Shown here: positions 4,636 to 19,418 of the stretch, in pieces
How the letters are laid out: the number at the start of each line of letters is the position of its first letter
How positions within the stretch are numbered: position 1 is the stretch's first letter
IMG/VR virus record: IMGVR_UViG_3300032173_000577
Span: 1-22,511 of that record
From: a virus
Reading direction: 5' to 3' (one strand)
DNA length: 22,511 nucleotides
Program-made: the position numbers and the translations under genes
The notes under the pieces: model-generated
The model's database searches: none
What the model was told of the DNA's origin: nothing
What the model saw: only the letters and a program-made list of their open reading frames with translations

Positions 4636-6117
4636 TTATGCTACCCCCTGTAATCGTATTCTATTCATCATTCTTCTTTCAACCCGTGTTGTAATCAATT
4701 CCCCATCTAAATAAACTGGTATTGTTATATTAGCATTGGTTGGTATAACTGTCTCACCTCTATGTAGATATGCTAAACCTGTCTCCCTGACTATGCCCCC
4801 CTTCTGATATGACTGAAGTCTGGTCGACAGTTGTGCTGCTTGTTGAGCGGCAAATCCAGCCTCTTCCACTCTACCTGCGGCTGCCGCTTCTTCTGCACGA
4901 CGCTCCCACTCTTCCGCTTCTTTCACAGCGGCAGCACGGTGGGCGGCATCATAGAATGGCGCACTCACTGCTGGTTGTTCTGAGGCGCTTCTGGCAGCGG
5001 CAAATGCTGCTTCCATTGCTCGTGTTAATTCTTTAGTTGCTTCAGTCTGCGCCTCAATTTGCTCTGTAGTTCCAGCAACACTTGTCATTAATGCCTCTTG
5101 ATCCTTGGCCGAGTCTTTTGTAGTAGCAATTTGCTCCGTTTCTCTTGATGCCAGCTGTTGTATACCAAAAGCGAGCATACCTATAGCGGCCGCAGAAGCT
5201 ATAGCAATCGGTATCCCATATCCAGTAGCTGCAACCGCGGCAATAGTAGCCGTTACCTGTGCCCATAGGGCTGTTACTATTGCTATCAGGCTGGGAAGTA
5301 GTGTTAACATAAAAGCCTTTGCCAGAAGCGTGATTCCACCAATCAAAGCTATTATCCCGGTAGCGCCTACCAGTACTGTAATTGCCCGCATCAAAGCTGG
5401 ATGTGCATCTGTCCAGGCCTTGATTCCCTGGACAACATCATTTAGATTCTTAATCAGTGGAGTAAAGATTGGCAGCAATACGGCACCAATTGCTTCCTTA
5501 AGGTCATCGATGTTATTCTGTAATAGCTCAAATTGCCCTTTCATACTTTTACCATATGCATCAGCCTGCCCTGCCGATAGTCTTTGAATTTCGGCTAGAG
5601 CTTCAGTAGCCGTTGCCCCTTCTTTTAACACAATGCCATATCGGGATAGTGTCCCCATATTGCCAGCGTAAACTCTGGCCAGGATATCGGTGGCAGTCCC
5701 TAAGTCAATATCTTTCCAGCGAGCTAAATCCATAGCGATGGTAAGTAGATTCTGTGCCTGCGTGAGGTTGCCCGTTACTGTGATAAGGGATGATAGCGAT
5801 TCCCTCTGCTGGCCGTCAGCAAAAGCAGTTTTTTGTTGCTGTGTGTTAATCCACTTTTCCAGACTTCCCCTTACTCCATCATAGCTGATACCCATATTCC
5901 CCATTGCTGTTGATAGCTTTACAATGCCTGCCTCTTCTTCAGCAGCAGCTTTAGCTGTCAGAGCTAACGCCCCAGTAATGGCAGTTCCTGCAGCAACCAT
6001 TATGCCGCCAGCAATAGCCATCTGTTTAGTCGTCAATCCAACCTGTTTTTCCACATCCTGGAGGGTTTTACTGGCTTCGTCTTTAGCTCTGACAATTATT
6101 TCTAAAACATTTGCCAT
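4636..6117 (-). CDS. Tail tape measure protein
   Basis: A 493-residue protein that sets tail length and is carried inside the tube. The N-terminus (EIIVRAKDEASKTLQDVEKQ) is the usual coiled start; a hydrophobic region at about residues 240-325 (IIALIGGITLLAKAF and following) contains several possible membrane helices; an Ala/Glu-rich coiled coil spans about 345-440; the end carries YQKGGIVRETGLAYLHRGET, a standard tape measure C-terminal phrase. At about 0.15 nm per residue the tail would be roughly 75 nm, short for a siphovirus. The ATG shares a base with the stop of the frameshifted chaperone (TAATG at 6115-6119). Confidence 0.9.
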   Translation of the reverse strand: MANVLEIIVRAKDEASKTLQDVEKQVGLTTKQMAIAGGIMVAAGTAITGALALTAKAAAEEEAGIVKLSTAMGNMGISYDGVRGSLEKWINTQQQKTAFADGQQRESLSSLITVTGNLTQAQNLLTIAMDLARWKDIDLGTATDILARVYAGNMGTLSRYGIVLKEGATATEALAEIQRLSAGQADAYGKSMKGQFELLQNNIDDLKEAIGAVLLPIFTPLIKNLNDVVQGIKAWTDAHPALMRAITVLVGATGIIALIGGITLLAKAFMLTLLPSLIAIVTALWAQVTATIAAVAATGYGIPIAIASAAAIGMLAFGIQQLASRETEQIATTKDSAKDQEALMTSVAGTTEQIEAQTEATKELTRAMEAAFAAARSASEQPAVSAPFYDAAHRAAAVKEAEEWERRAEEAAAAGRVEEAGFAAQQAAQLSTRLQSYQKGGIVRETGLAYLHRGETVIPTNANITIPVYLDGELITTRVERRMMNRIRLQGVA

Positions 6118-16429: not shown

Positions 16430-19162
16430 CTACTCAATCACACTTAGAATTACACAACGGCAATTCTTGACAACTATACCATTGGCGATGTATAATTGGT
16501 CTAAAGATTGGAGGTCATATACATGCCCGCTAAAATTAAATTTCCTAACTTGGAGAATTTGCTTTGGCGCTATCAGGCTGGCGAATCGGAACTGAAATTG
16601 GCTAGAGAGTTCGGTATAGACAGGGGAGTTATCCGTAGACGCCTTTTGGAAGCTGGTATCAAACCTAGAACGGGGAGCGAGGCTAACATTATTAGGATGT
16701 CTCGTTTGTCCATTGAAGAGCGAAGGGAACTGACTGCTGCTTCCCACATAGCAACTAGAGGGCGTATTCATTCTATTGCTGAACGAGAAGCGAGGGCTAA
16801 AACTCGTGAGATTAAGAGGCTTGGCATTTCTACAATTGAGAATATTTTCGTTACCATGCTTAAAGACAATGGCATCGCTGACATTATTCAACAAAAAGCT
16901 ATTGGGATATATAATGTCGACATCGCCATCAAAGCACCCCGCATCGCCATAGAAATCTTCGGAGGACACTGGCATAGTAGCCCTAAACACATCTTGCTTC
17001 ATCATAAGCGAATTCCATATATCCTCAATAGGGGCTGGACAACTGTTATTATCTGGATTGATGCTAGACGATATCCTTTGACCATCAAGGCTTGTGATTA
17101 CATAGTCTCCCTCGTGAAGATACTTGGCTCTCATAAATCCAGACGGGGTCAATATCATGTGATTAGGGGTAATGGTGAGTCTGTTCCCATCCTCAGTAGT
17201 GAGTTCAATTGCTTGCCCGTTGTAAAAAGCCCTACTTCCCGAGACAACATTGGATGCTTCCACTCTAACATCAGGTAAAACACAATTTGGATGCAATGCT
17301 GGTCTCGGTCCCTCATCTATTAGATAGATGTTATCGTGCAATGCCATACACTCATCACAAGTTCTCTCATCCAGTGCCGTATACCACTGAACCTTCTTAA
17401 CCCCCAATTCCCGGTATCCTTCCTCAGCCCCTTTAGCCGAAGCAGTGATAACCTCAGTTCGTGCTACCATTTGAGCCCTGATTTTGTAGGCATGTGTATA
17501 ATACTCCTCTATCCTCTTTGTTATCTTGGGAATAGATTCACCAGCCTCAAAACCAGCCGCCAACACCCCCCTTAATTGCTCAATAGTCGTGCCGTTTAAC
17601 AGCTTGGCTAATGTCAATGATCGGGTAGCAATCCACTCCAAAGCATGTGGGTTAAGGAATTCTTGCTTTATTATAGCGCGATGCGTTGGCTTCGGCTCTT
17701 CCCCCTCCATAACATCCCGTCCAGCTGATTCATATACGTAAGCAATTAAAGGTTTGAAAGCATCCTTAAATCTCTCATTAGCTTCAGTCTCATTAAACAA
17801 AGACCCTTCTGCTGTCTGCGACCTCTTTAGGTTTTCAATGACCTCAGATTGTTGCTCGTCAAATAGGGTCCTGATCATCTTGAGAAATGGCTTCTCTTGT
17901 CCTTCAGTCCTGGCTTTGTAACCTAGCCAGTAGAGCTCCTTCTGCTCCTCACTCCAACGGTGAGAAGTCAAATTTTTTTGTGTAAGACTTTTGGCTGTCT
18001 CAGGTAACATAGTTAACGGCAGTAAATAAGTCCCGCCCTTCATATCTTCTGAACTGTGCCCTAATAATTTCTGGGCAAACTCGCGGGTATAGACACCTGC
18101 CCGAACCATCTTGTCGCATTCATCAACTAATAATGATCTATCCTCAGTAACAGGACTGACAAAATCCAGCTCCAAATTCTCGTCAAACAGAGGGCATAAC
18201 TGCTCATTAAGTGCTTCCTTAATCCGCGTCAGTGCTGGCTTGATAGTGTATTTAGCAAAGATGTATTCATCTGCCTCTGCCCTCGCCCGGCTACCAACCT
18301 CACTTGCTCCTATCAAACTGTCAGGTATGTGGTAAGCCCCCAGAATCAGTTTCTTATTAGCATTCCTTAGCCGCTCAAACTCCATATCTTTCGGTGCTAA
18401 TGCAATAGTGTTAGCTTTAGCTCCCCCCCAGAGAAATGCAGGCTTGCGGGCATTCCGCCAACCCTGATGAACCTCTAAAAATTCCTCCCTCAATTGTTTT
18501 CTCACTTCTGCTGGGGGTAAATCGGGAAATTCCAAAATCAGTCCTGGTGTAGCATCATTAAAGAATAACCTCTGCTGATACCGGGAGGCATAATACTCGG
18601 CATCTATATCCATACTCGTTGCCCTCGCTGCCCCGGTCCCCCGATACGGATTAGCGGGGTTTGGGTCCATAATATGGATTACCTCAGGGATTTCGAGCCG
18701 AACTATATTAGTTCCTCTCCTGTATTCATAATGAGAAATATATTGTGTCTTGGAGGGAACAACATACATAAACCCTGGCGGAGCCAGCCACATCTCACCA
18801 GGGACCTTCAGCCTATTAAAGTTTAAAGTAATAAAAGCCTCGCCCACTAAACCGATATATGTTTGAAGCATTAGAAGAAACTGGTATCGAGTTTGGAAGG
18901 GATTAACATAATTAAGCAAATCTAAAATAGGATGGTCATCTATCTCCTCATATTCCTTGCGATTCTTCTTATGATAGAATTTCCACCTGCTATCAGCTAC
19001 AGAATTAGCAATAAGAGATACAGCCCCAAATAGCCAGCCCACCTCTCCATAAATTTCGAGGTATCTCTGATACGACCACCCAGGCGGTATGGCAAATTCG
19101 CTAATGTAACTGCCACCCAGACGGAATCCCAACAGCCTTTGAATTCTGGATTTAATAGTCAA
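16430..19162 (-). CDS. Portal-MuF fusion protein interrupted by an intein
   Basis: The 910-residue precursor should splice to 636 residues. Residues 1-400 are an HK97-family portal (GEVGWLFGAVSLIANSVADS, VNPFQTRYQFLLMLQTYIG, GAYHIPDSLIGASEVG), the ring through which DNA enters. A helical linker (400-510) leads to a MuF head morphogenesis domain (about 510-626 plus 901-910: ARTEVITASAKGAEEGYREL, DERTCDECMALHDN, ALHPN). The conserved HPNCRC end of MuF is split: HPN at 624-626, then intein residues 627-900, then CRCVILSVIE. Start is TTG at 19162 with GGGAGGT six bases upstream, overlapping the HNH stop by 11 bases. Portal and MuF are usually separate neighbouring genes, so the fusion is itself notable. 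Confidence 0.9.
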   Translation of the reverse strand: MTIKSRIQRLLGFRLGGSYISEFAIPPGWSYQRYLEIYGEVGWLFGAVSLIANSVADSRWKFYHKKNRKEYEEIDDHPILDLLNYVNPFQTRYQFLLMLQTYIGLVGEAFITLNFNRLKVPGEMWLAPPGFMYVVPSKTQYISHYEYRRGTNIVRLEIPEVIHIMDPNPANPYRGTGAARATSMDIDAEYYASRYQQRLFFNDATPGLILEFPDLPPAEVRKQLREEFLEVHQGWRNARKPAFLWGGAKANTIALAPKDMEFERLRNANKKLILGAYHIPDSLIGASEVGSRARAEADEYIFAKYTIKPALTRIKEALNEQLCPLFDENLELDFVSPVTEDRSLLVDECDKMVRAGVYTREFAQKLLGHSSEDMKGGTYLLPLTMLPETAKSLTQKNLTSHRWSEEQKELYWLGYKARTEGQEKPFLKMIRTLFDEQQSEVIENLKRSQTAEGSLFNETEANERFKDAFKPLIAYVYESAGRDVMEGEEPKPTHRAIIKQEFLNPHALEWIATRSLTLAKLLNGTTIEQLRGVLAAGFEAGESIPKITKRIEEYYTHAYKIRAQMVARTEVITASAKGAEEGYRELGVKKVQWYTALDERTCDECMALHDNIYLIDEGPRPALHPNCVLPDVRVEASNVVSGSRAFYNGQAIELTTEDGNRLTITPNHMILTPSGFMRAKYLHEGDYVITSLDGQRISSSINPDNNSCPAPIEDIWNSLMMKQDVFRATMPVSSEDFYGDAGCFDGDVDIIYPNSFLLNNVSDAIVFKHGNENILNCRNAKPLNLTSFSPRFSFSNRMNTPSSCYVGSSSQFPSLFNGQTRHPNNVSLAPRSRFDTSFQKASTDNSPVYTELSSQFQFRFASLIAPKQILQVRKFNFSGHVYDLQSLDQLYIANGIVVKNCRCVILSVIE
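16467..16496 (+). promoter_or_regulatory. Consensus promoter for the antisense homing endonuclease
   Basis: TTGACA at 16467-16472, 18-bp spacer, TATAAT at 16491-16496, both elements matching the sigma-70 consensus in all six bases. The expected start near 16503 gives a leader of about 20 bases containing GGAGG (16510-16514). On the other strand these bases encode the intein end QLYIANGIVVKN, so the -35 box begins four bases inside the splice junction. Confidence 0.85.
16523..17278 (+). CDS. Vsr-like (EDxHD-type) homing endonuclease nested antisense in the intein
   Basis: A 251-residue protein on the + strand, the only convincing + gene of the window. GGAGG (16510-16514) lies eight bases before the ATG at 16523; an in-frame TTG at 16508 overlaps that site and is rejected. 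Residues 9-50 form a helix-turn-helix (LWRYQAGESELKLAREFGID, GVIRRRLLEAGIKPR). Residues 100-200 fit the Vsr/very-short-patch-repair nuclease fold used by the I-Bth0305I group: E106 in STIENIF, IGIYNVDIAIKAPR with D133, IAIEIFGGHWHSS with E144, H149 and H151, then GWTTVIIWIDARRYPL. It should cut the intein-free MuF allele and promote copying of the intein. The tail from about residue 203 (SRRGQYHVIRGNGE) is the reverse complement of intein block B. About 37 Leu and Ser codons contain no TTA, CTA or TCA, as needed to keep the intein strand open. Confidence 0.88.
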   Translation: MPAKIKFPNLENLLWRYQAGESELKLAREFGIDRGVIRRRLLEAGIKPRTGSEANIIRMSRLSIEERRELTAASHIATRGRIHSIAEREARAKTREIKRLGISTIENIFVTMLKDNGIADIIQQKAIGIYNVDIAIKAPRIAIEIFGGHWHSSPKHILLHHKRIPYILNRGWTTVIIWIDARRYPLTIKACDYIVSLVKILGSHKSRRGQYHVIRGNGESVPILSSEFNCLPVVKSPTSRDNIGCFHSNIR

Positions 19163-19418
19163 CTTTTAACCTCCCTTGCAATTGCTGGGTTAGTTCCTTA
19201 ATTTGCCAGCGCATTAACCTGATTTCTTTCCGCAAATCGCAGTTGGCACAAATGGAATGAAGATTATGCTTCCCTATATCAGGCAATAATTCAAGGTTCT
19301 CAAGGCGGTTATCATCTTTAATTCCATTGCGATGATGGACTATTTCTGCCCCTGTCTTAATTTCACCAAGCCGCTTGACAATATCTTTAACTGCCATCTC
19401 AGAATTATTATAGCACAT
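19152..19418 (-). CDS. HNH endonuclease-like protein
   Basis: An 88-residue protein with GAEIVHHRNGIKDDNRLENL and ELLPDIGKHNLHS, the HH...DN...NL...H pattern of phage HNH nucleases; a C-terminal CxxC (CANC) and a basic helix (KEIRLMRWQIKELTQQLQGR) follow. Such proteins act near terminase and portal genes in many HK97-like phages and can help packaging, or act as free-standing homing enzymes. The start is uncertain: neither the ATG at 19418 nor that at 19397 has a clear ribosome binding site, and a TGCTATAAT motif covers the first codons, so the shorter form may begin almost at the RNA 5' end. The stop overlaps the portal start by 11 bases. Confidence 0.75.
   Translation of the reverse strand: MCYNNSEMAVKDIVKRLGEIKTGAEIVHHRNGIKDDNRLENLELLPDIGKHNLHSICANCDLRKEIRLMRWQIKELTQQLQGRLKVDY
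19407..19415 (-). promoter_or_regulatory. Candidate extended -10 promoter TGCTATAAT
   Basis: TGCTATAAT (T19415 to T19407, minus strand) lies just upstream of the ATG at 19397. A transcript starting near 19400 would be leaderless or nearly so for that start. No clear -35 box. Confidence 0.45.

Follow-up and report, generated by a model that had tools for sequence, protein, structure and literature searches.

The viral DNA analysed here (the window; 22,511 nucleotides, positions 1 to 22,511 of IMG/VR record IMGVR_UViG_3300032173_000577) very probably carries a mobile intein that contains, on its opposite strand, the gene for its own homing endonuclease, with the codons of the two proteins exactly opposite each other. 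On the strand of the structural gene, the splicing domain (blocks A, B, F and G) would surround a poorly structured linker, and the other strand would encode an N-terminal helix-turn-helix (HTH) joined to a Vsr-like nuclease of the EDxHD type. This nuclease would be expressed from its own promoter, located opposite block G; block F would face its ribosome site and start, and blocks A and B its tail. The features concerned are the following:

16430-19162, minus strand: portal-MuF fusion protein of 910 aa, the intein host (Pfam Phage_portal 5e-51, Phage_Mu_F 7e-13, Intein_splicing 1e-7)
16463-17284, minus strand: intein of 274 aa, C1 to N274, flanked by the MuF N-extein LHPN and the C-extein CRCVIL (C+1)
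17246-17284, minus strand: intein block A (CVLPDVRVEASNV), from alignments of family inteins
17150-17176, minus strand: intein block B, TITPNHMIL, read as nuclease QYHVIRGNG on the plus strand
16508-16525, minus strand: intein block F (HVYDLQ), with the nuclease Shine-Dalgarno and ATG on the opposite strand
16463-16495, minus strand: intein block G region (LYIANGIVVKN), with the putative nuclease promoter on the opposite strand
16523-17278, plus strand: antisense Vsr-like/EDxHD endonuclease gene, 251 aa (ATG at 16523, TAA at 17276-17278)
16550-16651, plus strand: N-terminal HTH of the nuclease, residues 10-43 (weak Pfam HTH_58; AlphaFold helices)
16832-17131, plus strand: nuclease catalytic domain with E106, D133, E144 and GGHWH (family alignment, profile and fold)
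17144-17176, plus strand: conserved tail RGQYHVIRGNG, of which residues 211-215 are modelled confidently as a beta strand
16467-16496, plus strand: predicted sigma-70-type promoter, TTGACA (16467-16472), 18 nt, TATAAT (16491-16496), 12/12 consensus
16510-16514, plus strand: Shine-Dalgarno GGAGG, 8 nt before the ATG and opposite block F

The key residues C1, T39/H42, N274 and C+1 are all present in the window's intein; C1, H42 and N274 are invariant among 34 aligned inteins, and Cys+1 was conserved in the loci inspected. The portal-MuF protein scored above the cut-off of TIGR01443 (intein C-term), and its Pfam Intein_splicing score of 32.1 bits lies under the curated cut-off. A penultimate His in block G is common in inteins, but not universal. 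The window has Lys at this position (VVKN/C, the slash marking the splice junction), and the inteins of its relatives end in HN, SSN or KN, the penultimate residue often being something other than His. When the intein was modelled alone with AlphaFold, the splicing halves mostly reached pLDDT 87-98 and the middle (residues 131-216) fell below 50; inteins topped the list of Foldseek matches to this model. Within the same portal-MuF protein, residues 512-769 are matched by PHROG 15127 (head protein), a profile which therefore seems to include the sense reading of the intein and of the antisense nuclease. The window also holds a small HNH_3-type ORF (19152-19418; 88 aa) immediately upstream of the portal-MuF gene and, at its edge, an ORF of repetitive short motifs (10-285; MTAPSPM-type repeats).

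The antisense protein resembles known nucleases both in profile and in fold. Searched against the PDB, the family profile matched 3hrl (5e-7), I-Bth0305I (3r3p, 1e-5) and, weakly, Vsr; Pfam MTES_1575 (PF18741) gave 26.6 bits on the window's nuclease, below the gathering cut-off of 38.2. The AlphaFold model, built from an alignment of 54 relatives, has a mean pLDDT of 88.8 and consists of the N-terminal HTH, linking helices and an alpha/beta nuclease core. Rows from annotated phage records were left out of the alignments used for modelling. The catalytic domain adopts a Vsr-type fold: Vsr (1cw0) matches the model with Z 11.2 and rmsd 2.3 over 116 residues, and I-Bth0305I (3r3p) with Z 9.2 over 96 residues; Foldseek paired model and Vsr with a probability of 1.00, though at an E value of 0.0086. 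The tail segment YHVIR is modelled as a strand (residues 211-215), which assigns the tail to the nuclease, and confidence is low after about residue 220. In the family, D133 is invariant, E106 and E144 are conserved in at least 90% and GGHWH is found in most members; certain lineages (phages of Salmonella, Gordonia and Pseudomonas) have lost GGHWH, so some nuclease copies may be inactive or altered. Some relatives are about 50 aa longer, apparently by a second HTH unit. Across the family, intein lengths cluster at about 272, about 320 and 364-393 aa (e.g. L148, L194 and L131), apparently because the nuclease has one, two or three such units.

The original prediction had described the endonuclease tail as mirroring intein blocks A and B codon by codon, and this proved correct. 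The plus-strand ORF (16523-17278) and the minus-strand ORF (19162-16430) share codon boundaries, so that CAA TAT CAT GTG ATT AGG GGT AAT GGT at 17150-17176 reads QYHVIRGNG on the plus strand and TITPNHMIL on the minus strand. The overlap far exceeds the 17120-17278 reported there: the entire nuclease gene lies antisense within the intein, its stop codon opposite intein residue 3. The suggestion that the tail is only a shadow of block B was discarded, as it is predicted as a confident strand and a similar tail occurs in the one relative found outside an intein (L205, see below).

We scanned viral contigs, bacterial genomes, phage records and annotated regions for relatives; because the full family profile was too diverse, pattern scans used subsets of the alignment. 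This yielded 256 loci, 176 of them non-redundant at 90%. The codon-aligned opposite frame was open across the whole nuclease in 175 of the 176 non-redundant loci, compared with 18.3 expected by chance from GC-matched windows of neighbouring genes. Low-GC loci (< 45%) had an open opposite frame in 15/15 cases, against 0/77 null windows in the GC bins 0.3-0.4. High GC as the cause of the open frame is excluded by the GC-matched null and by these low-GC loci. The sense frame is unbroken through the window's intein, as it is across the nuclease in 175/176 relatives. A simple pattern search recovered block B in 170 and block F in 171 of the 176, and the His codon of block B faces V or M of the nuclease tail in 165/170. 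The loci inspected carry the intein at the same MuF position (HPN/CRC or its counterpart). Phage hosts according to GenBank include Salmonella, E. coli, Klebsiella, Cronobacter, Pantoea, Pseudomonas, Vibrio, Haemophilus, Idiomarinaceae and Gordonia, and the matches in bacterial genomes include assemblies of Actinobacteria, Chloroflexi, Cyanobacteria, Bacteroidota and Planctomycetota.

The substitution pattern indicates which strand is under selection in each part of the intein. Among 13 Guernseyvirinae, exteins follow the usual pattern, in which the third position is fastest (N-extein rates at sense codon positions 1/2/3 of.196/.122/.482), whereas the nuclease core shows the reverse pattern (.226/.034/.052). 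Sense position 1 is the wobble position of the antisense frame and is the fastest in the core, so selection in this central part of the intein acts on the nuclease; position 1 also exceeded position 3 in the core in 49 of 53 disjoint pairs (phages, all sources). Over blocks A/B, which the nuclease tail overlaps, the rates in the 13 Guernseyvirinae are.103/.044/.126, and as positions 1 and 3 are both slow, both proteins are constrained there. Block F-G, upstream of the antisense start, shows the intein pattern only (.014/0/.139).

Expression signals lie opposite the splicing motifs throughout the family. A promoter score of at least 8 was reached by 53.5% of the family's upstream regions compared with 3.6% of extein windows, with two preferred places for the -10 element; about half of the loci gave no clear promoter match by the scoring used. 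In order to separate these signals from protein constraint, synonymous codons were re-drawn 200 times per locus. The promoter score then fell within the top 5% (p<=0.05) at 70/134 loci versus 4/158 extein control segments, and 84 Shine-Dalgarno motifs were observed against 26.1 +/- 4.2 expected. The Leu codon of block F was CTC, which is GAG on the opposite strand, in 93/138 cases versus 23% in exteins; since the loci share descent, these counts are not fully independent. Judged from sequence, the putative promoter and ribosome-site signals are stronger than the intein protein sequence alone would give. Blocks G, F, B and A are predicted to double as the promoter, the translation start and the C-terminal strand of the nuclease. 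With a promoter of its own, the nuclease could be produced whether or not the oppositely directed structural operon is transcribed.

Mobility is suggested by the distribution of alleles. Among Salmonella phages (Guernseyvirinae), head genes measure 1860 or 1044 nt, and the gap is exactly the 816-nt intein of 272 codons; exact intein-free alleles of this in-frame insertion thus exist within the Guernseyvirinae. Of 392 nuclease pairs that are at least 50% identical, 275 have N-exteins less than 35% identical; the window and L128, for instance, are 66% identical in the nuclease and 27% in the N-extein. Fast MuF evolution may account for part of this pattern. From this allele distribution and the spread across MuF hosts we infer homing: the nuclease would cut the intein-free MuF gene near HPN/CRC, and repair would copy the intein in. 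Locus L143 (4084-4513), with an intein of about 194 aa, intact splicing blocks and a partly deleted antisense nuclease, would represent the decay stage expected from a homing life cycle.

Other readings of these data have to be weighed. Were only the intein coding, its conservation could make the mirror frame look conserved, the more so as codon-aligned antisense frames are often open at high GC (0.16-0.34 of 220-codon windows at 60-70% GC). This reading has next to no probability: it is refuted by the codon-position flip in the core, and further contradicted by the 15/15 open frames at low GC, by promoter and Shine-Dalgarno signals beyond the synonymous expectation, and by a confident nuclease fold matching Vsr and I-Bth0305I while the sense middle is disordered. 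Conversely, the nuclease gene could be real and the sense reading a mere open frame without a working intein, for which the disordered linker, the frequent lack of a penultimate His and the weak Pfam score could be cited. We consider this most unlikely, given that C1, the block B His and the terminal Asn are conserved, as is Cys+1 in the loci inspected, that block F-G is under sense-type constraint, that both halves fold like an intein, and that the insert lies within an essential head gene, at one and the same position in the hosts inspected. A further alternative accepts the dual coding and supposes that the nuclease no longer homes and serves another role, such as the exclusion of competing phages. 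The catalytic histidines do differ between lineages, yet the frame stays selected, as this would predict; it is made unlikely by the scattered occurrence of the element at a single precise site, by its spread over divergent MuF hosts and by the fact that one of the closest relatives of known structure, I-Bth0305I, is a homing endonuclease.

The original prediction had gone further, proposing that many annotated free-standing Vsr-like endonucleases actually sit antisense in unrecognised inteins and that a VIRGxG tail would find them. The tail that it named, YRVIRGDG, agrees with the family consensus, [Y/E][R/H][V/M][I/V][R/W]G[D/A/N]G. As a fingerprint, VIRGxG is a true mark of the family, present in degenerate form in most members; its exact form occurs in only 46/176, which makes it a partial one. 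All 46 non-redundant relatives with the exact motif have an open intein frame opposite; these, along with Salmonella phage PK1, whose record annotates both genes, favour the wider proposal. Nevertheless, we regard it as very unlikely. Antisense placement in an intein applies to this family (175/176), whereas the more distant Vsr-like nucleases of L265 and of the mycobacteriophages Seagreen and Camster have no intein opposite them, and one member of the family itself, L205, lies outside any intein. Moreover, the supposed annotation bias runs the other way round: GenBank phages mostly annotate the sense MuF or head gene and miss the nuclease, which among the family-bearing phage records opened was annotated in one, that of PK1. 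In the Salmonella phages L161 and L166, the intein-bearing MuF gene is labelled NAD+--asparagine ADP-ribosyltransferase, apparently a misannotation.

L205 (3809-4675) is the only one of the 176 non-redundant relatives found outside an intein. Its nuclease gene lies antisense to the 3' end of MuF and ends within about 15 bases of an intact MuF site, HPGCRC (4688-4705), and the tail is still similar (REYHLVWNSGK). The locus could have kept an ancestral, free-standing arrangement or have lost the intein, and it shows that the open opposite frame is no by-product of the nuclease sequence. A second intein, elsewhere in the same MuF protein (DALC...HN/CDYC), was found in L006 (5009-5878) and also in L061 and L264; on its antisense strand it carries a Vsr-like nuclease of the zinc-ribbon type, with codons aligned as in the main family. 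Among the other relatives of this zinc-ribbon nuclease that were opened, some stand free and others divide a methylase gene that shows no intein motifs, so the L006 arrangement looks independent in origin; a second large antisense-in-intein family was sought among them, and none was found beyond L006. In two mycobacteriophages (L270, 1465-2262; L271, 917-1705), a DNA methylase gene is split in its middle by an antisense Vsr-type endonuclease, and no intein motifs were seen around either. With an autonomous antisense gene laid over splicing motifs, the inteins described here probably form a distinct class of mobile intein, one that has arisen more than once, as L006 suggests.

Several known systems resemble parts of this arrangement. 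Inteins with in-frame homing endonucleases (LAGLIDADG; HNH is also known) likewise have blocks A, B, F and G, interrupt an essential gene, contain the nuclease gene and have empty alleles. However, their nuclease is a same-strand domain of the intein, and in the window it is a separate opposite-strand protein with its own putative promoter and start. Fractured genes, reportedly described by Dassa et al. in 2009, are said to have split inteins whose halves are separated by a free-standing gene for a Vsr-like endonuclease. They share with the window a Vsr-related nuclease, phage hosts and a gene within the intein boundaries, but their intein is split; that of the window is unsplit, its sense frame continuous rather than divided into two frames, and its codons face those of the overlapping nuclease one for one. 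I-Bth0305I (EDxHD, 3r3p) shares the catalytic domain (E 1e-5, Z 9.2) and the extension by a DNA-binding module; unlike the window's nuclease, it comes from a group I intron and has no opposite-strand coding overlap. Nuclear group I introns of Didymium do carry homing endonuclease genes antisense to the host splicing element (PMC9548176), but there the element is a ribozyme, the gene sits in a peripheral loop and encodes a His-Cys nuclease, and no two proteins overlap. E. coli phage Snoke has an intein in its capsid morphogenesis gene that is lacking in the related phage K1ind2 (PMC6776784); it belongs to the same family and site as the window's intein, and the report makes no mention of an endonuclease. 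Our search of the literature accessible without subscription found no published antisense endonuclease gene in an intein. Sense-strand nuclease inteins, fractured genes and antisense group I intron nucleases each provide one half of the window's system, which would work like a mobile intein and has a new gene architecture.

Where two real proteins overlap on opposite strands, the overlap is usually dismissed, and annotation pipelines drop it. Here is a widespread case, present in hundreds of phage contigs, in which sequence alone can support both proteins, and it accounts for these phage MuF inteins seeming free of endonucleases. E. coli phage Snoke and the Salmonella Jerseyviruses offer tractable examples for experiment. 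The overlap also makes dual-coding constraint directly measurable, as the splicing motifs would have to serve at the same time as promoter, ribosome site and beta strand, and it suggests a route by which the nuclease may be made independently of transcription of the head gene.
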